This document shows positions 27,631 to 53,929 of a stretch of 64,000 nt of DNA, one piece after another. The notes below the pieces were generated by a model. That model was not told the origin of the DNA. It saw nothing but the letters and a program-made list of their open reading frames with translations, and searched no databases. Numbering within the stretch: the first letter of the stretch is position 1; every line of letters starts with the position of its first letter. The position numbers and the translations under genes are program-made. Source of the stretch: Candidatus Tenderia electrophaga (GTDB lineage: Bacteria > Pseudomonadota > Gammaproteobacteria > Tenderiales > Tenderiaceae); the NCBI GenBank assembly GCA_001447805.1, contig CP013099.1, positions 1,116,001 through 1,180,000 on the forward strand, written 5' to 3'.

Positions 27631-28029
27631 ATGAAGATTTACGAGGATAATTTCCGGCGTTTGATGACCTTGCTGCCCGAGCTGGACGGCGAGGTGCAGT
27701 GTTGTCAAGGCGCCGGCCGCCGCGACGGCCTGTCTGTGGATGTACTTGAGCGGCACAAATATACCACCGTCATCAAACTGGCCCAGCGCTTGCCGCTTTC
27801 GTTTTTGGCGGCGGCCATGCCGCGCATGATCGTGCGTATCTATCACGATGCCGGGGTCGCCGAGGTGTTGTCCTACCAGCGCCACTATCGGTTCAAACCC
27901 AAATACGATTACCCCAACCCCGAGATGTGCCAGGTGCGCGAAAAGCAGCGTGTTAATCAGTTTCTCGGGGAATGGCTGGACCATTGTCTGGCCGCCGGGG
28001 TGTCGTTGCGGGCGGTGGCGCTGGGCTGA
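27631..28029 (+). CDS. DUF1249 (YqiB-like) family protein
   Basis: This is a 132-residue soluble protein. MKIYEDNFRRLMTLLPEL, LEVxVLERHKYTT-type residues, PRMIVRIYHDAGVAEVLSYQ and YPNPEMCQVREKQRVNQFLGEWL are the family pattern of E. coli YqiB. Its function is not established, but it is conserved between nudF and cpdA in many gammaproteobacteria, suggesting a link to nucleotide or cAMP metabolism by context. Here no cpdA follows; the wsp operon begins instead. Confidence 0.88.
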   Translation: MKIYEDNFRRLMTLLPELDGEVQCCQGAGRRDGLSVDVLERHKYTTVIKLAQRLPLSFLAAAMPRMIVRIYHDAGVAEVLSYQRHYRFKPKYDYPNPEMCQVREKQRVNQFLGEWLDHCLAAGVSLRAVALG

Positions 28030-28144
28030 GCCAGAGCTGCGTCGCCGCGGCTTATCGGCGCGCTCAATTTCCCCTTATATTTCGAGGTCATGGGCCGCCG
28101 CGTCGGGTTTTCTGCCAGCGTGTTTGCCAGGCTCTGACTGCCGT

Positions 28145-28171
28145 TAAAGTTTCAACATCGAATGCCGTTGA
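28145..28171 (+). promoter_or_regulatory. Sigma-28 (FliA) promoter upstream of the wsp operon
   Basis: TAAAGTTT at 28145-28152 is an exact match to the FliA -35 box. After 11 bases, GCCGTTGA (28164-28171) matches six of eight positions of GCCGATAA. The spacing is canonical. It lies about 118 bases upstream of wspA in a 260-base gap with no other gene, on the correct strand. Confidence 0.65.
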
Positions 28172-28289
28172 AGGGGATGGAGCCCTATCCAGGCCTAGCG
28201 CGCGATTGACTGCATGATTTTGCTCATGCCGGGCTAGAGGCTTGTGACTCGAAAATAAGAGTATTACGGAAATTGACTGAAGGGACACT

Positions 28290-30296
28290 ATGAACGCCAA
28301 CATCGAAGAGACGTCCACCACGCTCAAGGGAATGTCCATTCCAACCAAAATCAACCTTGTCGTCGGGGTCATTTTTCTACTGGTCATCGTCACGGTAACG
28401 GGGTTTGTGTTTATCCAGGATCGCGCGCGCGCGCTGGAGGTGGCCAAGGAACGCACCACTGACATGACCACCCTGTATTTCGACGGCTTGAATACCATGA
28501 TGTTGACCGGCACCATGGCCAACCGAGAAATTCTACAGGGCAAGATGGCGCGGCGTCCCGGCGTGTTGGAGGCCCGTGTCATCCGCGGCGAGCCGGTGAA
28601 GCAGCAGTTCGGCCCCGGCTTTGATCATGAACAACCCGTCGACGAGTTGGATCAGCGCGCCCTGAAGGGCGAAGAGATCGTCCAGGTCGCCGAAACCAGC
28701 AACGGCCGCGTCCTGACCGTTCTGAAGCCCTTCAAGGCGACCAATAATACCCGCGGCGTTAACTGTCTGCAGTGCCATAATGTGCCCAGTGGCGCCATTA
28801 ATGGCGCCATTCGCGTGAGTTACTCCTTGGCGGAGATGGACGCCTATATCAAAAAAGAGATGGCCATCGAGGCGATTGTGAATCTCATTGCGCTCGGCAT
28901 CGGCCTCGTGTTGGTCAATTATTTTCTTCGCGGCTGGGTCAGCCGGCCGCTGTTCGGCCTGATGGATGTGGTGACGCGTCGCGCCACCGGCGATGTGGAC
29001 GCACGTGTCGAGATTTCCTCCGGTGATGAAATCGGCAAAGTGGGCAAGGCCTTCAATGATATGGCCGACAAGGTCAATTTCACTACCGAGCGGGAGCATG
29101 CCGCGGCCCAAGAGCTGCGCCACAAAGTGGACATCTTGCTGGGCGTGGTGAACAAGGCCGCCAAGGGCGATATGTCGGGCAAGGTCACCTTCGGTGGCAA
29201 GGACGCCATCGGCGAACTGGCCACCGGTTTGCAGATCATGATTAATAACATCCATAAAATGATTGAAGAAAGGCGCAAGGCAGTGGAGGATCTGAGACGC
29301 AAGGTGGATCTGATCCTCGAGACCGTCACAGCCGCCGCCAACGGCGACCTGACCGGCAAGCTCGAGGTGTACAGCGATGACGCCATCGGCCAGCTGGCCC
29401 GGGGCGTGCAATCCATGATCGACAACTTGAATGTGCTCGTGGCGCAGGTGCAGCGTTCCGGTATCCAGGTGACTTCTTCAGCCACCCAGATCGCCGCCAC
29501 CGCCAAGGAGCAGGAGGCTACCGTGGCCGAGCAGGCCGCCACCGTGAATCAGATCGTGGCCACCACCACCGAGATCTCGGCCACCGCCAAGGAGCTGGTG
29601 AGCACTATGGACGAGGTGTCGACTGTGGCCGAAGGCACGGCCAGCGCCGCCGCCAACGGCCAGGCCGGCTTGCAGAAGATGGAGTCGACTATGCACCAGG
29701 TGGTGGAGGCTTCGACCTCCATCGCCGCCAAGCTCGAGGTGCTGAACGAGAAGGCCGGCAACATCAATACCGTGGTGACCACCATCACCAAGGTAGCCGA
29801 CCAGACCAACCTATTGTCACTGAATGCCGCCATCGAAGCCGAGAAGGCCGGCGAGTACGGCCTGGGCTTTTCCGTAGTGGCCACCGAGATTCGCCGCCTG
29901 GCCGACCAGACCGCCGTGGCCACCTGGGATATCGAGCAAATGGTCAAGGAGATGCAGGCCGCTGTGACCGCCGGTGTCATGAGCGTGGAGCGCTTTTCGG
30001 AAGAGGTGCGCCGCAGTGTCGACGAGGTGAGTAATATCAGTTCCGGCCTGGCCGAGATCATCGACCAGGTGCAGGCGCTGACACCGCGCTTCGAAAGCGT
30101 GCATGAAGGGATGCAGTTCCAGTCGCAGGGTGCCGAGCAGATCAAGCAGGCGATCGAACAACTGAGCGAGTCGGCGCAGCAGACGGTGGAATCACTGAGA
30201 CAATCCCATTCGTCCATCGATCACCTGAACGAAGCGGCCCACATGTTGCAGACGGGGGTGTCAAAATTTAAGGTCTCAACGCCCGACGCAACGTAG
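28290..30296 (+). CDS. wspA: WspA-like methyl-accepting receptor with periplasmic heme c motif
   Basis: This is a 668-residue chemoreceptor heading a Wsp-type operon. One helix (residues 22-42) is followed by a periplasmic sensor to residue 193 with a c-type heme attachment motif Cys159-Leu-Gln-Cys162-His163, and a second helix (195-214). A HAMP domain follows, then two more HAMP-like units (about 280-332 and 340-390). The signalling tip (TNLLSLNAAIEAEKAGEYGL, then ATEIRRLADQTAVATWDIEQ) is the WspA signature. Known WspA proteins are about 540 residues with a ligand- or surface-contact-sensing periplasmic domain without heme, so a redox or gas input is inferred. A sigma-28 promoter match lies upstream. 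Confidence 0.92.
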   Translation: MNANIEETSTTLKGMSIPTKINLVVGVIFLLVIVTVTGFVFIQDRARALEVAKERTTDMTTLYFDGLNTMMLTGTMANREILQGKMARRPGVLEARVIRGEPVKQQFGPGFDHEQPVDELDQRALKGEEIVQVAETSNGRVLTVLKPFKATNNTRGVNCLQCHNVPSGAINGAIRVSYSLAEMDAYIKKEMAIEAIVNLIALGIGLVLVNYFLRGWVSRPLFGLMDVVTRRATGDVDARVEISSGDEIGKVGKAFNDMADKVNFTTEREHAAAQELRHKVDILLGVVNKAAKGDMSGKVTFGGKDAIGELATGLQIMINNIHKMIEERRKAVEDLRRKVDLILETVTAAANGDLTGKLEVYSDDAIGQLARGVQSMIDNLNVLVAQVQRSGIQVTSSATQIAATAKEQEATVAEQAATVNQIVATTTEISATAKELVSTMDEVSTVAEGTASAAANGQAGLQKMESTMHQVVEASTSIAAKLEVLNEKAGNINTVVTTITKVADQTNLLSLNAAIEAEKAGEYGLGFSVVATEIRRLADQTAVATWDIEQMVKEMQAAVTAGVMSVERFSEEVRRSVDEVSNISSGLAEIIDQVQALTPRFESVHEGMQFQSQGAEQIKQAIEQLSESAQQTVESLRQSHSSIDHLNEAAHMLQTGVSKFKVSTPDAT

Positions 30297-30305
30297 CCCT
30301 TTGCC

Positions 30306-30791
30306 ATGATGATGTTGCTGTTCAAGATCAACGGCGAACGCTACGGGCTGGATGTGGCGGACGTCGTTGAGCTTGTGCCCTACGTGGTGCTGCAGAGTCT
30401 GCCCAAGTCCCCTGCTTATATCGCCGGCCTGATGAACTTCAGGGGCAGAATCGTGCCGGTGGTCGATTTGTCCATTCTGCTGTGTGACAAACCGGTAAAG
30501 CACTTGATGAGCAGCCGTATCATTCTGATCCAGCCGGTCAAGTCAGAGCCCCGGCTGGTCGGCCTGTTGGCGGAAAACGTCACCGAAACCGTCAAGGTTT
30601 CGGAAGACATATTTACCGATACGGGAATACAGCCTGAGACCAGCGCCTTTGTCGACAAGGTGGTTATGCACCCGGCGGGTGTAATTCAGTTCGTCTCGCC
30701 GACCAAGTTATTGCCCAAGGAGGTGAGGGTGATGTTGCGCGGCGAAGGGCGTACCACGGTCGAAGCCGGAAACCAAAATGATGTCGTTTGA
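30306..30791 (+). CDS. wspB: WspB-like CheW coupling protein
   Basis: This is a 161-residue CheW-domain protein (LLFKINGERYGLDVADVVEL, LMNFRGRIVPVVDLSILLC). It links the WspA receptor to the WspE kinase in a signalling array. It starts 9 bases after wspA, and its stop lies inside the start of the CheR gene, so the operon is tight. It is one of two CheW proteins in the operon; in Pseudomonas both WspB and WspD are needed with different roles in array placement. Identity rests on position and domain. Confidence 0.88.
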   Translation: MMMLLFKINGERYGLDVADVVELVPYVVLQSLPKSPAYIAGLMNFRGRIVPVVDLSILLCDKPVKHLMSSRIILIQPVKSEPRLVGLLAENVTETVKVSEDIFTDTGIQPETSAFVDKVVMHPAGVIQFVSPTKLLPKEVRVMLRGEGRTTVEAGNQNDVV

Positions 30792-32034
30792 CACCATACA
30801 AAAGCTGATCAAGTCGGACATGGGGCTGGCGCCGGAGTCGGTCGGTGCGGAAACGATCAAGCGGGTAGTGACGCGGCGCATGAAGACGGTCGGCATGGAC
30901 GATGTCGCCGAGTATGTTCGGCTCATCAAAACCTCGGTCGAGGAAATGCAGCATCTTATTAATGAAGTGACGGTGCCGGAGACGTGGTTCTTCCGTGATC
31001 ATGAACCTTTCAATGTCTTGGCCGATTATGTCCGTCGCTTTAAGATCAGCGGCGGCGGCAAAAAAATCAATATACTCAGCGTGCCCTGTTCCACCGGTGA
31101 AGAACCCTACTCCATCGCCATGGTGCTGCGAGACGCCGGCTTGGGAAAAAACGGCTTCGGCATCGATGCGGTAGACATCAGTACCGTCGTGTTGGAGAAG
31201 GCGCGCAGGGGTGTCTACAGCGAGAACTCGTTTCGCGGTAAGGACGTGAGTTTCCGCGATAGGTATTTTGAAAAAGAGGGGCAAAATTACCATATCTCCG
31301 CCGAGATCAAGACGACAGTGAATTTTGCCAAGGGCAACATTGTCGCCCCCGGTTTCATGGCGGGCAAGGGACCGTACGACGTGGTGTTCTGCCGTAATTT
31401 GCTGATCTATTTCGATTACCAAACCAAATGCGATGTACTCGACACCCTGCATGGCCTTATGGCCGACAAGGGCATGCTGGTGCTGGGCCATGCCGAGACC
31501 GGTCGTATGCCGACCGGCTTGTTTGAAACCCTCAACCTGCCCGGCTCGTTCGCCTATTTGAAATCCGATGCGTCGCGCGCGCCGACCAAGCCCGTGTCCG
31601 CGGCCGCATTCAAACAGACGCCGCAGCCGCCGCGACGCATAGCGTCTAAGCCGGCCATCGCCGTCGTGAAACATGAGCCGGTGGAAGCCGCGTCCGAGCC
31701 GCTGGCGCAGATACAGGCCTGGGTCGATTCGGTGCAGCAGCTGGCCGACGAAGGGCGTCTGAAACAGGCCCTCACCGAGTGCGATAAATTGATCGCCGCG
31801 GTGCCCGATTCGGCCCAGGGCTATTATCTCAAGGGGCTTGTGTTGTTGGGTTTTGACGCGGACGAAGAGGCCATGACCGCGTTTAAGAAGGCGGTTTATC
31901 TTGATCCTAAACATTACCAATCATTGATTCATCTGTCGGTCTTGGCCGAGGAACAGGGCGAATTACGCGCTGCGGAAAATTTTCGCGCGCGCGCCGATCG
32001 TTTGCGCGACAGCGGTCAGCTGGACGCGATTTAG
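30778..32034 (+). CDS. wspC: WspC-like CheR methyltransferase with TPR tail
   Basis: The product is 418 residues. Residues 1-265 are a CheR methyltransferase: N-terminal helical domain, TWFFRDHEPFN (the typical FFR motif), the SAM-binding segment LSVPCSTGEEPYSIAMVL, and DVVFCRNLLIYFD. A linker leads to a C-terminal TPR region (about 310-415; GYYLKGLVLLGFDADEEAMTAFKKAVYLDPKHY). WspC methylates glutamates of WspA to set receptor sensitivity; WspF removes the groups. The start overlaps the wspB stop by 14 bases. Confidence 0.92.
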   Translation: MMSFDTIQKLIKSDMGLAPESVGAETIKRVVTRRMKTVGMDDVAEYVRLIKTSVEEMQHLINEVTVPETWFFRDHEPFNVLADYVRRFKISGGGKKINILSVPCSTGEEPYSIAMVLRDAGLGKNGFGIDAVDISTVVLEKARRGVYSENSFRGKDVSFRDRYFEKEGQNYHISAEIKTTVNFAKGNIVAPGFMAGKGPYDVVFCRNLLIYFDYQTKCDVLDTLHGLMADKGMLVLGHAETGRMPTGLFETLNLPGSFAYLKSDASRAPTKPVSAAAFKQTPQPPRRIASKPAIAVVKHEPVEAASEPLAQIQAWVDSVQQLADEGRLKQALTECDKLIAAVPDSAQGYYLKGLVLLGFDADEEAMTAFKKAVYLDPKHYQSLIHLSVLAEEQGELRAAENFRARADRLRDSGQLDAI

Positions 32035-32053: not shown

Positions 32054-32734
32054 ATGGCGGAACAGGACAAAATCATTGACGATTGCTGGAACCGCATCGG
32101 CGTCTGGTCCAAGGGCGATCACGAATGCCCCAAGCTTAAGGACGTCGGTCATTGCATCAATTGCGCAGTGTTTTCCTCCGCCGGCCGACAGTTGTTGGAG
32201 TCCGAGCCGCCGGCGGGTTATCTGGAACAGTGGACTGAGTTTTGTTCCGCCCCACAGGAAGACAAGAATACTCAGGCCGGTTCCATTATCCTGTTCCGGC
32301 TCGGTGATGAATGGCTGGGTTTGGAAACGCGCTTGCTGGATGAAGTGACCTCGATGCGCAGCGTCCACAGCGTTCCACACCGCAAAAGCAGCGTCCTGAA
32401 GGGGCTGGTGAATGTGCGCGGCGAGTTGCAGCTGTGCGTCTCCATCGGCCGCCTGTTAAACGTTACCCGAGGCGAAATGACCGGCACCAATGTGGTGAAA
32501 GGGATGTATGAGCGGATGGTAGTGGCTTCGTACAATGGTGTCAGGGTCGTGTTTCCCGTCAGCGAGGTGCGCGGGGTGTATCGTTTCGATTTCGCTGAGA
32601 TGACCGAGGCGCCGGCGACCGCGATGAATTGCTCGGTGCACTATCTCAAGGGCATGCTGATCTGGGAGAATCACCACGTCGGCGTGATTGACCAGGAATT
32701 ATTGTTCCCTGCGCTGCAGCGCGGGATTTTGTAG
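32054..32734 (+). CDS. wspD: WspD-like CheW coupling protein with Cys-rich N-terminus
   Basis: The product is 226 residues, matching the length of WspD (about 230) rather than a plain CheW. An N-terminal extension of about 75 residues holds a C-x8-C-x2-C pattern (HECPKLKDVGHCINCAVF) that is typical of WspD and could bind metal. The CheW domain follows from about residue 75 (FRLGDEWLGLETRLLDEVTS, LVNVRGELQLCVSIGRLL). It is the second coupling protein between WspA and WspE. The stop lies 15 bases before the wspE start. Confidence 0.9.
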   Translation: MAEQDKIIDDCWNRIGVWSKGDHECPKLKDVGHCINCAVFSSAGRQLLESEPPAGYLEQWTEFCSAPQEDKNTQAGSIILFRLGDEWLGLETRLLDEVTSMRSVHSVPHRKSSVLKGLVNVRGELQLCVSIGRLLNVTRGEMTGTNVVKGMYERMVVASYNGVRVVFPVSEVRGVYRFDFAEMTEAPATAMNCSVHYLKGMLIWENHHVGVIDQELLFPALQRGIL

Positions 32735-32749
32735 GTGGGAGTCGGACGC

Positions 32750-35700
32750 ATGTCGGATACCTCCATGCTGGATTTATTCAAGATGGAAGTTGAGCAACAG
32801 ACTGAATTGCTCAATGACAGCTTGCTGGCGCTCGACCAAAATCCGACCAGCGCCGAACATCTGGAGGCGGCGATGCGCGCCTCCCATTCCGTCAAAGGCG
32901 CTGCGCGCCTGTTGGGCGTGGAGTCGGTGCAAGGGCTGGCCCACATGATGGAGGACTGCTTGGTGGCGGCCCAGGAGGGGCGCCTGTTGTTGGACGGCGA
33001 TGCGGTGGATGTATTGCTCAAGGCCATGGACGCCATTCGTCAAATCGCCGCCGCTGAAGACAATCTGGATGCCTGGCTGGATGACCACCGCCAGGTGTTT
33101 GATCAGCTGGTGTCCGCACTGGAAGGGGTGGGCAGCCGGGCCGACGCCGAAGCCACGCCCCGGATTAACGTGGCGGAAGCAGTCGTGTCGGCCCCGGAGA
33201 CCCCGACGGCAACGTCTGCGGACATTCCCGAGAGGAGGCTCAACTTGACCGAGGATGCCTCCTTGCTGGAGCTGTTCCGGGTCGAATGTGAGCAGCACGG
33301 CGCGGTTATCGGTGAGGGCCTGTTGACGCTGGAACAGAATCCGACCGCGTCGGAGTGCCTGGATCAGCTAATGCGCGCCGCCCATTCCATTAAGGGTGCG
33401 GCGCGTCTGGTGGGTATCGAGCCGTTGGTGGAAATCGCCCATGCCATGGAAGACGGGTTTGTCGCGGCGCAGAACGGCGAGTTGGAATTGAGTGCCGACG
33501 ACATCGATGTGATGCTCAAAGGTTTGGATGTCATTCAGGAAATCGCCGCCTATGAGGGTGACCTGAACCAGTGGTACGGCGGCCGCAGGCAGGATATTGC
33601 GCAACTGGTGCAAGCCCTGGCGGCGATCAAGCCGGCGCCTGACGCACAGCCGGCCGCGCCCGAGCGGGCGCCCGCCCCAGCGCATGACGAAGCGGATATT
33701 TCCCTCACCATCGGCGATCCCTCCATGCTTGATCTGTTCCGGGTCGAGTGTGAGCAACACGGCGCGGTGCTGAATCAGGGCTTGTTGGCGTTGGAACAAG
33801 ATCCGACTTCGCCGGAACGCCTGGAACCGTTGATGCGCGCCGCGCATTCAATCAAGGGCGCGGCGCGCCTGGTGGGCATCGAGCCGGTAGTCAAGCTGGC
33901 CCATGCCATGGAAGATGGCTTTGTCGCGGCGCAAAACAGTGAGATTGTCCTCTCCGCCGAGCATATGGATGTCTTACTCAAGGGCGCGGACACCATTCTC
34001 GCCATCGCCATGCATGAGGGTGAACTGGCCGATTGGTACGACGCCAATAGGCAGGACTATCTGAGTCTGCTGGACGAGGTCAACGCCATACTCAAGGGCG
34101 AGTCGGGTGTCGTTACCGAAACCCGGGCCGAAGCGGTCCCCGCGGCGGCGAGCGAAGCGCGGCCCGAGCCGGGGGAGGCAGGGGACGCCGATACCGCCGC
34201 CGTCAAGCCGGCGCTGAAAAAAAATACTGCGCCGCAGAAGGATCGCGTGCTGCGCGTCAGCGCCGAGCTGGTGAACCGGCTGATGGGCTTGGCCGGAGAG
34301 TCGCTGGTGGAATCGCGCTGGCTGTATCCCTATTCCGAATCCCTGCGCCGTCTCAAGCGCCAGCAGACCGATTTGGTCTGTATGATCGATTCCCTGCGCG
34401 AGCGCATGGAGCGGCAACAGGTCAGTGATGATATGCGCGGCCTATTGCGCGATGCACAGCGCCAGGCGTCTCAATGCCGCGAGGTGATGTCCGATCGCCT
34501 TAACGAATTAGAGTCTTATGATCGACGTTTGAGTAACCTGTCTTCGCGCCTGCACCGCGAAGTGGTAGGCAGCCGCATGCGTCCCTTCATCGACGGTGTG
34601 CACGGTTTTCCGCGTATGGTGCGCGACATATCGCGCAGTTTGAAGAAAGACGTGCAACTGATTATCGAAGGCGAAACCACCATGGTGGATCGCGACATCC
34701 TGGACAAGATCGAGGCGCCGCTGAATCATATTATTCGTAACGCCATTGACCACGGCCTCGAATCGCCGGAGGAGCGCGTCGCCGCCGGAAAACCGGCCAA
34801 GGGCACGATTCGGCTGCGTGCCTATCACAACGCCGGCATGCTCTCCATCGTGGTCGGCGACGACGGCCGCGGCATCGACCTGGACAGGTTGCGTCACAAG
34901 ATCGTGGAAAAGGGGCTGATCGATGCGGCGATGGCCGAGACGCTGAGCGAGATGGAACTCACCGATTTCTTGTTCTTGCCCGGCTTTAGCACCAAAGACA
35001 AGGTCAGCGAGATCTCCGGCCGCGGTGTCGGGTTGGACGTGGTCTACGACGCCATGCAGGAAATGCGCGGCAATGTCAGGGCCACCTCGAAGCCGGGTCA
35101 GGGGACTCGCTTTCATATGCAGCTGCCCCTGACCTTGTCGGTGATCCCCGCCCTGTTGGTGGAAATCGCCGGCGAGCCTTATGCCTTTCCGCTGGCGCGC
35201 ATTGACCGAATCGCCAGCGTCAGGCAGTCCGAGGTCAGCGAAGCAGAAGGTAATCAGTTTGTGGTGTTGGACGGTAAAAACGTGGGATTGGTCAGTGCCA
35301 GCCAGATCCTCGAAAAAGAGTCCGGCATGGAGCACACAGGCCTGATGTCCGTAGTGGTGTTGAATGAACGCAACCATTACTACGGCATGGTCGTCGACAA
35401 GTTTCTCGGCGAACGGGAATTGGTGGTGCAGGTCATGCCCGAGGCCTTGGGCAAGGTGCAGGACATCAGTTCCGCCGCCTTGATGGAGGATGGTTCGCCG
35501 CTGTTGATCGTGGACGTGGACGACCTGATCCGTTCCATCGAAAAGGTGTTGAAAACGGCCCGTCTGGGCAAGGTAAGTTCGATTCTTGAAGAAGAGACCG
35601 CGCTTTGCAAGACCGTGTTGGTGGTGGATGATTCCATTACCGTGCGTGAAGTGGAACGCAAGCTGTTGGAAAGGGCCGGTTATCAGGTGGAAACAGCGGT

Positions 35701-35983
35701 GGACGGTGTAGACGGTTTAAATATGTTGCGCAGTCAGCCGTTCGACATGCTGGTGACCGATGTGGATATGCCGCGTATGAATGGTATAGATCTGGTGAAA
35801 ACCCTCAGGCAGGATGCAAGCCTGCGCTCGCTGCCGGTGCTGATGGTTTCTTATAAAGATCGGGAGGAGGATAAGTTGAGAGGATTGGAAGCCGGAGCAG
35901 ATTATTATTTGACCAAGGGCAGTTTCCACGACGAAACCTTGTTGCAGGCCGTCGTCGATCTGGTCGGTGAGGCCAAGTCGTGA
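32750..35983 (+). CDS. wspE: WspE-like hybrid CheA kinase with three Hpt domains and receiver
   Basis: This is a 1077-residue hybrid kinase. Three Hpt domains carry phospho-acceptor histidines at 46 (ASHSVKGAARLL), 212 (AAHSIKGAARLV) and 366 (AAHSIKGAARLV). The dimerization, ATP-binding (NHIIRNAIDHGLE, DDGRGIDL, GRGVGLDVVYDAM) and CheW-like domains follow, then a C-terminal receiver with Asp1004 in VTDVDMPRMNG. Pseudomonas WspE has one Hpt domain; the extra two make the protein about 300 residues longer. The ATG at 32750 has a GGTGGGAG site 8 bases upstream; a GTG at 32735 is the alternative. The receiver may be a phosphate sink or a branch point. Confidence 0.95.
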   Translation: MSDTSMLDLFKMEVEQQTELLNDSLLALDQNPTSAEHLEAAMRASHSVKGAARLLGVESVQGLAHMMEDCLVAAQEGRLLLDGDAVDVLLKAMDAIRQIAAAEDNLDAWLDDHRQVFDQLVSALEGVGSRADAEATPRINVAEAVVSAPETPTATSADIPERRLNLTEDASLLELFRVECEQHGAVIGEGLLTLEQNPTASECLDQLMRAAHSIKGAARLVGIEPLVEIAHAMEDGFVAAQNGELELSADDIDVMLKGLDVIQEIAAYEGDLNQWYGGRRQDIAQLVQALAAIKPAPDAQPAAPERAPAPAHDEADISLTIGDPSMLDLFRVECEQHGAVLNQGLLALEQDPTSPERLEPLMRAAHSIKGAARLVGIEPVVKLAHAMEDGFVAAQNSEIVLSAEHMDVLLKGADTILAIAMHEGELADWYDANRQDYLSLLDEVNAILKGESGVVTETRAEAVPAAASEARPEPGEAGDADTAAVKPALKKNTAPQKDRVLRVSAELVNRLMGLAGESLVESRWLYPYSESLRRLKRQQTDLVCMIDSLRERMERQQVSDDMRGLLRDAQRQASQCREVMSDRLNELESYDRRLSNLSSRLHREVVGSRMRPFIDGVHGFPRMVRDISRSLKKDVQLIIEGETTMVDRDILDKIEAPLNHIIRNAIDHGLESPEERVAAGKPAKGTIRLRAYHNAGMLSIVVGDDGRGIDLDRLRHKIVEKGLIDAAMAETLSEMELTDFLFLPGFSTKDKVSEISGRGVGLDVVYDAMQEMRGNVRATSKPGQGTRFHMQLPLTLSVIPALLVEIAGEPYAFPLARIDRIASVRQSEVSEAEGNQFVVLDGKNVGLVSASQILEKESGMEHTGLMSVVVLNERNHYYGMVVDKFLGERELVVQVMPEALGKVQDISSAALMEDGSPLLIVDVDDLIRSIEKVLKTARLGKVSSILEEETALCKTVLVVDDSITVREVERKLLERAGYQVETAVDGVDGLNMLRSQPFDMLVTDVDMPRMNGIDLVKTLRQDASLRSLPVLMVSYKDREEDKLRGLEAGADYYLTKGSFHDETLLQAVVDLVGEAKS
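33260..34084 (+). repeat. Tandem duplication of Hpt-coding units inside wspE
   Basis: The second (about 33260-33622) and third (about 33722-34084) Hpt units are close copies: their His codons are 462 bases apart, with GLLTLE/GLLALE, RVECEQHGAV and HSIKGAARLVGIEP shared. The first unit (about 32759-33109) is more diverged. This indicates a recent internal duplication within the gene. Confidence 0.8.
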
Positions 35984-37020
35984 GGATCGCAATCGTCAAT
36001 GATTCCATGATGGCGGTGGAGAGTCTGCGCCGTGTGATTACGTCGGTACCGGACTACGAGTTGGCTTGGATCGCCAACGATGGCGCCGAGGCGATCTGGC
36101 GCTGCGGCACCGATGTGCCCGATTTAATGCTGATGGATCTGATCATGCCGGTGATCGACGGGGTAGAGGCGACGCGCAAGATTATGGCCGAGACCCCTTG
36201 CGCCATCCTGGTGGTGACATCCACCGTCGCCGGTAATGCCTCCAAGGTGTTTCAGGCCATGGGCCATGGCGCCCTGGATGCGGTGAACACGCCAGTGCTG
36301 GGCATGACCGGCGATGCCGAAGGCAAGGACGAACTGTTGCGCAAGATCGCCACCATCGCCAAACTGATCCGTCAACGCAAGGGCGATAGCTCGGAGAATT
36401 TATTCCGCGCTGCCAAACCCAAGACGACGCCGACCCATAAGAACCTTGTGGCGATCGGTTCCTCGTCCGGCGGGCCCAAGGCGCTGGCGGTTCTATTGCA
36501 CGCCTTGCCTGCTGATTTCCCTGCGCCGATTGTGATTATCCAACATGTGGATGAAAAGTTTTCCGCTGAATTGGCGCTGTGGTTGAATCGGCAATGCGCG
36601 CTTGAGGTGCGTCTGGCGGAAAAAGGTGATAGCTTGGAGCCCGGCAGGGCGTTGATCGCCGGTAATAATAACCACCTGATAGTCAATTCAAACGGTCGGC
36701 TTGACTATACCCCTGACCCTGTCGATATGGTTTATAGGCCCTCGGTGGATGTGTTCTACGCCAGCATTGCGGAGCATTGGTCCGGGGACGTCGTGGCGGT
36801 GCTGTTGACCGGCATGGGACGCGACGGCGCACAAGGCCTGTTGACCTTGCGTAACAAAGGTGTGTTCACCGTGGCACAGGACGAGACGACCTGCGCGGTC
36901 TACGGTATGCCGAAGGCCGCGGCCCAACTCGGCGCGGCTGAAAAAATATTGCCGCTGGACGATATTGCTCCTGAGTTGAATCAATATTTCGCGGGCAAGA
37001 AAAATAGGCACGTATGCTGA
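35980..37020 (+). CDS. wspF: WspF-like CheB methylesterase
   Basis: The product is 346 residues. The receiver domain (residues 1-125) has Asp53 in LMLMDLIMPVIDG. After a linker, the methylesterase domain has the catalytic Ser in IGSSSGGPKAL, His in IIQHVDEKFS and Asp in LLTGMGRDGAQGL, so it is complete. CheB-type enzymes demethylate the receptor; loss of WspF in pseudomonads locks the pathway on and raises c-di-GMP. It starts with GTG overlapping the wspE stop (GTGA), and its stop overlaps the wspR start, so the three are co-translated. Confidence 0.94.
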   Translation: MRIAIVNDSMMAVESLRRVITSVPDYELAWIANDGAEAIWRCGTDVPDLMLMDLIMPVIDGVEATRKIMAETPCAILVVTSTVAGNASKVFQAMGHGALDAVNTPVLGMTGDAEGKDELLRKIATIAKLIRQRKGDSSENLFRAAKPKTTPTHKNLVAIGSSSGGPKALAVLLHALPADFPAPIVIIQHVDEKFSAELALWLNRQCALEVRLAEKGDSLEPGRALIAGNNNHLIVNSNGRLDYTPDPVDMVYRPSVDVFYASIAEHWSGDVVAVLLTGMGRDGAQGLLTLRNKGVFTVAQDETTCAVYGMPKAAAQLGAAEKILPLDDIAPELNQYFAGKKNRHVC

Positions 37021-38045
37021 TGGACGTAAGCAGGCAAGACGATCAAGCGACGGCGGAGGTCAACACCTGCGCGGACGCGGCGCGTATCCGGGTGATGTTG
37101 GTGGACGATCAGAATATCGTGGCCGAGGCGTTGCGCCGCATGTTGGCCGACGAGGCCGAGATTGATTATCACTATGTCAGTGATCCCGCCTCCGCCATCG
37201 ATGAAGCGACCAAGTTCAAGCCGACGGTGATCCTCCAGGATTTGGTCATGCCGGATATCGATGGTTTGATGCTGCTCAAGTTCTACCGCTCCAATCCCGA
37301 GACCAAAGTGGTGCCGGTGATTGTGCTGTCCACCAAGGAAGACCCTAAGATCAAGAGTGAGGCCTTCGCCCTCGGGGCGAGCGACTACCTGGTCAAGTTT
37401 CCGGACAAGATCGAGGTGATCGCCCGTATATTAGCCCACTCGCGCAGTTTTCTGGCGCAGCAGCAGCGCGATGAGGCCTATCAGGCCTTGGAGGTGTTGA
37501 AAAAGGAATTGGAGGAAAAGAATACCGAGTTGGAACGCTTGTCATCTCAGGACGGCCTGACCGGCATTGCCAACCGTCGTATCTTCGATGAATTCTCGGG
37601 CAAGGAGTGGGGCCGCGCCGCCCGCGATCATGCGCCGTTGTCTCTGATCTTGATCGATATCGATCATTTCAAGACCTACAACGATAACTATGGCCATCAG
37701 GGCGGCGACGACTGCTTGCGCCAGGTGGCCCAGAAGCTTGCCAGTACCGTGCGCCGTCCCAGCGATCTGGTGGCGCGTTACGGTGGCGAGGAGTTCGCCG
37801 TGGTAATGCCGGGGACGGACCTCGAGGGGGCCAAGCGTATTGCCGACGCCCTGTGTGACGGGGTAGCCTCAATGAATCTGCCGCACGCCCATTCCTCCAC
37901 TGCCGATCATGTCACCATCAGTCTCGGGGTGGCCAGCGCCATGCCGACCACGGAGGGCGGTCCGGAGCAGCTGATCGAGAAGGCCGACGAGGCCTTGTAT
38001 CAGGCCAAGAAGAGCGGCCGCAACCAGTTCCAGGTCGCCGACTAG
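37014..38045 (+). CDS. wspR: WspR-like response regulator diguanylate cyclase
   Basis: The product is 343 residues. An N-terminal receiver domain (acidic pocket VDDQ, Asp76 in VILQDLVMPDIDG) is joined by a helix (LEVLKKELEEKNTELERL), likely a coiled coil that drives dimerization, to a GGDEF domain with the active motif GGEEF at 257-261. An RxxD inhibitory site (R248 to D251) lies five residues before it, so product inhibition is expected. Phosphorylation by WspE should raise c-di-GMP synthesis. The start overlaps the wspF stop. It is the output of the operon and probably the last gene of it; a weak hairpin lies about 40 bases downstream. Confidence 0.95.
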   Translation: MLMDVSRQDDQATAEVNTCADAARIRVMLVDDQNIVAEALRRMLADEAEIDYHYVSDPASAIDEATKFKPTVILQDLVMPDIDGLMLLKFYRSNPETKVVPVIVLSTKEDPKIKSEAFALGASDYLVKFPDKIEVIARILAHSRSFLAQQQRDEAYQALEVLKKELEEKNTELERLSSQDGLTGIANRRIFDEFSGKEWGRAARDHAPLSLILIDIDHFKTYNDNYGHQGGDDCLRQVAQKLASTVRRPSDLVARYGGEEFAVVMPGTDLEGAKRIADALCDGVASMNLPHAHSSTADHVTISLGVASAMPTTEGGPEQLIEKADEALYQAKKSGRNQFQVAD

Positions 38046-53053: not shown

Positions 53054-53080
53054 GTATCGGGCAAAGGGGGCGAAACTTGA
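53054..53080 (-). promoter_or_regulatory. Sigma-28 (FliA) promoter of flgMN
   Basis: On the minus strand, TCAAGTTT (53080-53073) is followed after 11 bases by CCCGATAC (53061-53054). The -35 matches TAAAGTTT at 7 of 8 bases and the -10 matches GCCGATAA at 6 of 8, with exact spacing. It lies 36 bases upstream of the flgM start. Confidence 0.75.
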
Positions 53081-53901: not shown

Positions 53902-53929
53902 TCAAGCTCACCATGCCCAGACCCGATAT
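53902..53929 (+). promoter_or_regulatory. Possible sigma-28 promoter of cheV
   Basis: TCAAGCTC (53902-53909) and CCCGATAT (53922-53929) with a 12-base spacer match the FliA pattern in most positions and lie about 46 bases upstream of the cheV start. The match is weaker than for flgM. Confidence 0.45.

Follow-up and report, generated by a model that had tools for sequence, protein, structure and literature searches.

The window, that is the whole stretch of 64,000 nucleotides that was analysed, contains seven genes with short or overlapping junctions, which encode an MCP, a CheW, a CheR-TPR, a second CheW, a CheA, a CheB and a receiver-GGDEF protein and thus follow the Wsp order. They lie behind a site that resembles a sigma-28 (FliA) promoter. 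The window also contains flagellar genes (flgM, a CheV-like gene and flg genes), which start about 14 kb further downstream; two more sites of this kind lie there and served for comparison. The features are as follows.

28145..28152, + strand: candidate sigma-28 -35 box TAAAGTTT, exact consensus, 92% pairwise identity among wspA orthologues taken one per family or genus
28153..28163, + strand: spacer CAACATCGAAT, 11 nt, unconserved
28164..28171, + strand: candidate sigma-28 -10 box GCCGTTGA, extended -10 GCCG kept, core TTGA degenerate
28177, + strand: predicted transcription start, about 6 nt past the -10 box, placed by analogy with E. coli aer (PMC2859248)
28290..30296, + strand: wspA, receptor with a CxxCH heme-binding motif (28764-28778), HAMP and MCP signalling domains
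30306..30791, + strand: wspB, CheW
30778..32034, + strand: wspC, CheR methyltransferase with TPR
32054..32734, + strand: wspD, CheW
32735..35983, + strand: wspE, CheA-type kinase with three consecutive Hpt domains and a receiver
35980..37020, + strand: wspF, CheB methylesterase
37014..38045, + strand: wspR, receiver-GGDEF diguanylate cyclase, GGEEF present
53054..53080, - strand: comparison site, flgM-side sigma-28 promoter TCAAGTTT-N11-CCCGATAC
53902..53929, + strand: comparison site, sigma-28-like TCAAGCTC-N12-CCCGATAT ahead of the CheV-like gene

The content and order of the wspABCDEFR genes, the CheA-type kinase and the receiver-GGDEF output are shared with the Wsp system of Pseudomonas. 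A probable difference lies in the receptor, as WspA carries CxxCH and a weak Tll0287-like match here. Searches of the WspA sensor domain against Pfam and known structures gave only weak matches: 8 of 21 members resembled Tll0287, with a best E of 8e-4, and a further match was to the methyl-accepting chemotaxis protein domain 3b47 (E 0.014). The CxxCH motif (WspA residues 159-163) is invariant in all aligned orthologues, in alignments of 14 as well as of 21 sequences, which makes redox sensing plausible. No RNA family was found in the wsp leader.

The candidate site occupies positions 28145-28171 of the forward strand as TAAAGTTT-N11-GCCGTTGA, in full TAAAGTTT CAACATCGAAT GCCGTTGA. Its geometry is as the earlier note had described it: an exact -35 box, a spacer of 11 nt, a -10 box that matches GCCGATAA in 6 of 8 bases, and a gap of 118 nt to the ATG of wspA at 28290, on the same strand as the gene. 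The -10 box opens with GCCG, as in sigma-28 promoters. The pattern TAAAGTTT-N11-GCCGNTNA has a single exact match in the 3.76 Mb genome, which is the wspA site; its reversed form has none.

A sigma-28 matrix was derived from 32 sites located upstream of flagellin and flgM genes of about a dozen related genomes and upstream of receptor, PAS and STAS-like genes of this genome; the wsp site of the window was left out of the training set. On this matrix, whose T[AC]AAG and [CT]CG columns are flattered due to the pattern by which the training sites were gathered, the window site reaches 13.0 + 6.9 = 19.9 bits, with the maximal score for its -35 box. That value falls inside the range of 14.7-23.9 bits obtained for the 32 training promoters by leave-one-out scoring and lies above the flgM promoter of the same genome (19.66 bits). 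A scan of both strands of 464 kb, composed of the window, flagellar-cluster neighbours and stretches chosen for pattern or receptor matches and therefore enriched for true sites, revealed 10 places with at least 19.9 bits. Of the nine other places, eight precede genes of the flagellin, receptor, PAS or STAS-like kind, and several of them belong to the training set. Six simulated Markov-1 scans of the same size contained no place that reaches 19.9 bits. The training set has spacers of 11 nt in 20 and of 12 nt in 12 of its 32 sites. The flagellar promoters of these genomes tolerate TCAAG, a spacer of 11 or 12 nt and A, T or C at position 5 of the -10 box, and the spacer of the window site fits that range.

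The site is found upstream of wspA in all seven of the same-genus genomes compared, and its orthologues occur in about nine families. Carriers are the same-genus genomes G001-G006, G007, G009 and G010 from other genera of the family, and members of other families. The pattern TAAAG-N14/15-NCCG lies within 300 nt of the start at 35 of 47 heme-wspA loci compared to 7 of 340 upstream regions of other ORFs at the same loci (Fisher P ~1e-32), and the stricter TAAAGTT form at 25 heme-wspA loci and in none of the control regions (P 1e-26); both P values are too optimistic, as the loci share ancestry and the sites were selected by their score on the matrix. The stronger point is the contrast between the boxes and their flanks. 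Pairwise identity among twelve loci, each standing for one family or genus, amounts to 0.92 for the -35 box and 0.96 for GCCG, but only to 0.46 for the core -10, 0.29 for the spacer and 0.26 for the flanks. Conservation through general relatedness was rejected, as flanks and spacer are at background identity.

The site also stays with wspA where its surroundings change. The upstream DNA differs in several families, and in G003 the site is still associated with wspA at -389 despite the changed distance. Between G091 and G318, which belong to one genus, the spacer shifts from 11 to 12 nt while both boxes are kept, which fits a two-part recognition by a sigma factor. About ten heme-wspA loci have no recognisable site. 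Among the 26 wspA genes without the heme motif only one (L176) is preceded by such a site, TAAAGACT-N12-GCCGATAG with 20.1 bits, 221 nt before the start. Given this locus, wsp may have come under FliA control on more than one occasion. As a side observation, G003, which is the closest relative, apparently has about 245 extra bases that separate wspA from the sigma-28 site (L003:1139-1500) and seem to have been inserted.

The genome encodes FliA, FlgM, flagellins and FlhA, and a single FliA-type sigma factor lies over the curated cut-off. Among 39 heme-wspA genomes 37 have a FliA over that cut-off, in comparison to 16 of 31 members of the class without heme-wspA (Fisher P 4e-5), an association that may partly come about because both go with motility. 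Two site-bearing genomes are without FliA, namely G091 (99% complete) and G004 (83%), and FlhA and rod genes are absent from both as well. They were set aside as counter-examples: a gene that in sister genomes flanks the flagellar cluster (G091) or lies near it (G004) is also gone there, and a contig missing from the assembly is likelier, if not proven, than a loss of flagella. G043, G045, G062, G074, G087, G111, G206, G213, G294, G304, G309 and G315, most of which are heme-wspA genomes, each have a pair of FliA-type sigma factors above the curated cut-off.

The sequence of the site, its score on the matrix, its conservation and a genome equipped with FliA, FlgM and flagellar genes lead us to consider it, with a probability of roughly 0.78, a sigma-28 promoter that drives wspABCDEFR and places the operon among the late genes of the flagellar regulon. 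The FliA-type promoter that the earlier note had placed ahead of wspA is thereby borne out by the matrix check (19.9 bits) and by conservation across families. FlgM holds FliA until the hook-basal body is complete. For the wsp operon we infer use by FliA, timing through FlgM, a weak promoter strength and a physiological role as follows. Upon completion of the hook-basal body FlgM would be exported and FliA set free, and free FliA would bring RNA polymerase to the perfect -35 box and GCCG, so that the Wsp proteins would be made in cells whose flagellar export apparatus works. Flagellated cells would then carry WspA in their membrane, and WspR would produce c-di-GMP only upon stimulation of the receptor. 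FliA would in this way arm a surface or redox sensor in swimmers. In Pseudomonas the output of WspR depends on its phosphorylation by the Wsp pathway, and for that reason FliA would make the sensor ready without fixing the level of the signal. The proposal that the promoter times a rise in c-di-GMP with motility hence goes beyond the evidence. The same applies to the statement that the operon is expressed only once the flagellum is complete, since the core -10 is weak and read-through or another promoter is possible.

The core -10 is indeed poorly kept. Its position 7 is an A in 31 of 32 flagellar promoters, compared to 5 of 39 wsp sites, and the T at position 6, which is present in all 32 flagellar promoters, drifts in distant wsp relatives, for example in ACCGCCTT. 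In the window the core reads TTGA, with the T of position 6 kept and no A at position 7, where the reference is ATAA and the form in these genomes [ATC]TA. The same-genus wsp sites TAAAGGAT, TAAAGATT and TAAAGCTT score 11.3-14.5 bits, just below the range of true promoters. In comparison to flagellar promoters the -35 box of the wsp sites is better kept and the core -10 less so; across orthologues, the quality of the -35 box and that of the -10 box showed no significant compensation (Spearman rho -0.21, P 0.26). Given the poor core -10, the wsp promoter is probably weak or activator-assisted, and a low output would suit a receptor-kinase system that is needed in few copies.

A proven sigma-28 promoter of a sensor gene is known from E. 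coli aer, TAAAGATA-N11-GCCGACAT, whose core -10 departs from the consensus (ACAT) and which is nevertheless sigma-28 dependent (PMC2859248). Both boxes and their spacing are as in the wsp site. However, the aer promoter needs CRP centred at -49.5 (PMC2859248), whereas no activator was identified at the wsp site, and aer encodes an aerotaxis receptor while the target here is a c-di-GMP chemosensory operon.

The reading closest to the preferred one is that of a minor FliA promoter, according to which the bulk of the wsp transcripts starts at another promoter or stems from read-through of the upstream DUF1249 gene, and FliA provides a boost in flagellated cells. It is a milder form of the main explanation and the two overlap; we regard it as possible, at clearly less than even odds. 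The core -10 is degenerate throughout the clade, and the DUF1249 gene, which lies on the same strand as wspA, ends at 28029 with no terminator-like site found between it and the promoter. However, a sigma-70-like promoter was sought in 27900-28400 and none was found, and the site is kept in several families in spite of their different upstream DNA.

A stronger version of FliA control, in which the flagellar sigma-28 regulon of about nine gammaproteobacterial families always includes the heme-Wsp operon, whose promoter is a special sub-type (perfect -35 and GCCG with a poor core -10 that is selected and needs a partner protein), seems rather doubtful. If it were true, only cells with a finished flagellum could raise c-di-GMP via the heme-Wsp redox or surface sensor.

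It is unlikely that the site is read by a non-FliA sigma factor or by a DNA-binding regulator that shares TAAAGTTT and GCCG. Such a reader would agree with a -35 box that is kept better than at flagellar promoters and a core -10 that is not, as well as with the intact sites in the two assemblies without a FliA gene. Against it, the site has the boxes of sigma-28 in the right order and at its 11/12-nt spacing, the spacer varies by one base, only one FliA-type sigma lies over the cut-off in this genome, and both FliA-less assemblies probably miss a contig. A chance match or relic is highly improbable and was rejected on matrix score, simulations and cross-family conservation against unconserved flanks, even though with two mismatches allowed the forward counts of FliA-like sites are about the control counts in several genomes.

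FliA is already known to reach into c-di-GMP signalling. In E. coli yhjH and ycgR (PMC4183435) and in Pseudomonas putida bifA (PMC5300878) are under FliA control, and for P. aeruginosa PA4367 such control was reported without a canonical site (PMC4866697). However, yhjH and bifA code for phosphodiesterases, and the product of ycgR is a flagellar brake that responds to c-di-GMP, whereas the wsp operon makes c-di-GMP via a receptor pathway. The literature searched did not yield any report of a Wsp operon controlled by FliA, which is weak evidence as most subscription papers were outside that search. Judged by its promoter, the wsp operon would be a new, widely conserved sigma-28 regulon member of a known promoter kind. 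So far, the c-di-GMP proteins known to be under FliA control mainly degrade the signal or respond to it. If a conserved FliA promoter drives an entire operon for sensing and synthesis, the checkpoint for swimming would also install the machinery able to end it; swimmers would carry a ready-made stop sensor, and the heme type of WspA would be tied to flagellated cells. As the site is kept ahead of the same operon in many families while the surrounding DNA has changed, sensor and flagellum are probably produced together.

Further sigma-28-like sites were seen in this genome. One, TCAAGAAT-N12-GCCGATAA, lies immediately ahead of fliA (G000:C1:1235867, L121:15867) and suggests an autoregulation of fliA. 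A high-scoring site, TAAAGTCC-N11-GCCGATAA, is located at G000:C1:1673696 (L133:9696) ahead of a small gene that by eye looks like a bacterioferritin-associated ferredoxin; no link to flagella was seen for it. A third, TAAAGTATGNTATTAAATGCCCGATAA, is found upstream of a gene that by eye is pilM-like (type IV pilus) at G000:C1:3122513-3122539 (L129, - strand), and sites of the TAAAGTATGNTATTAAATGCCCGATAA type also occur at G002:C7:20238, G004:C4:18324, G005:C84:2001, G006:C58:16432 and G009:C3:106445. Unlike at the wsp site, the spacer of the pilM-side site is conserved too, which hints at another or an additional reader.
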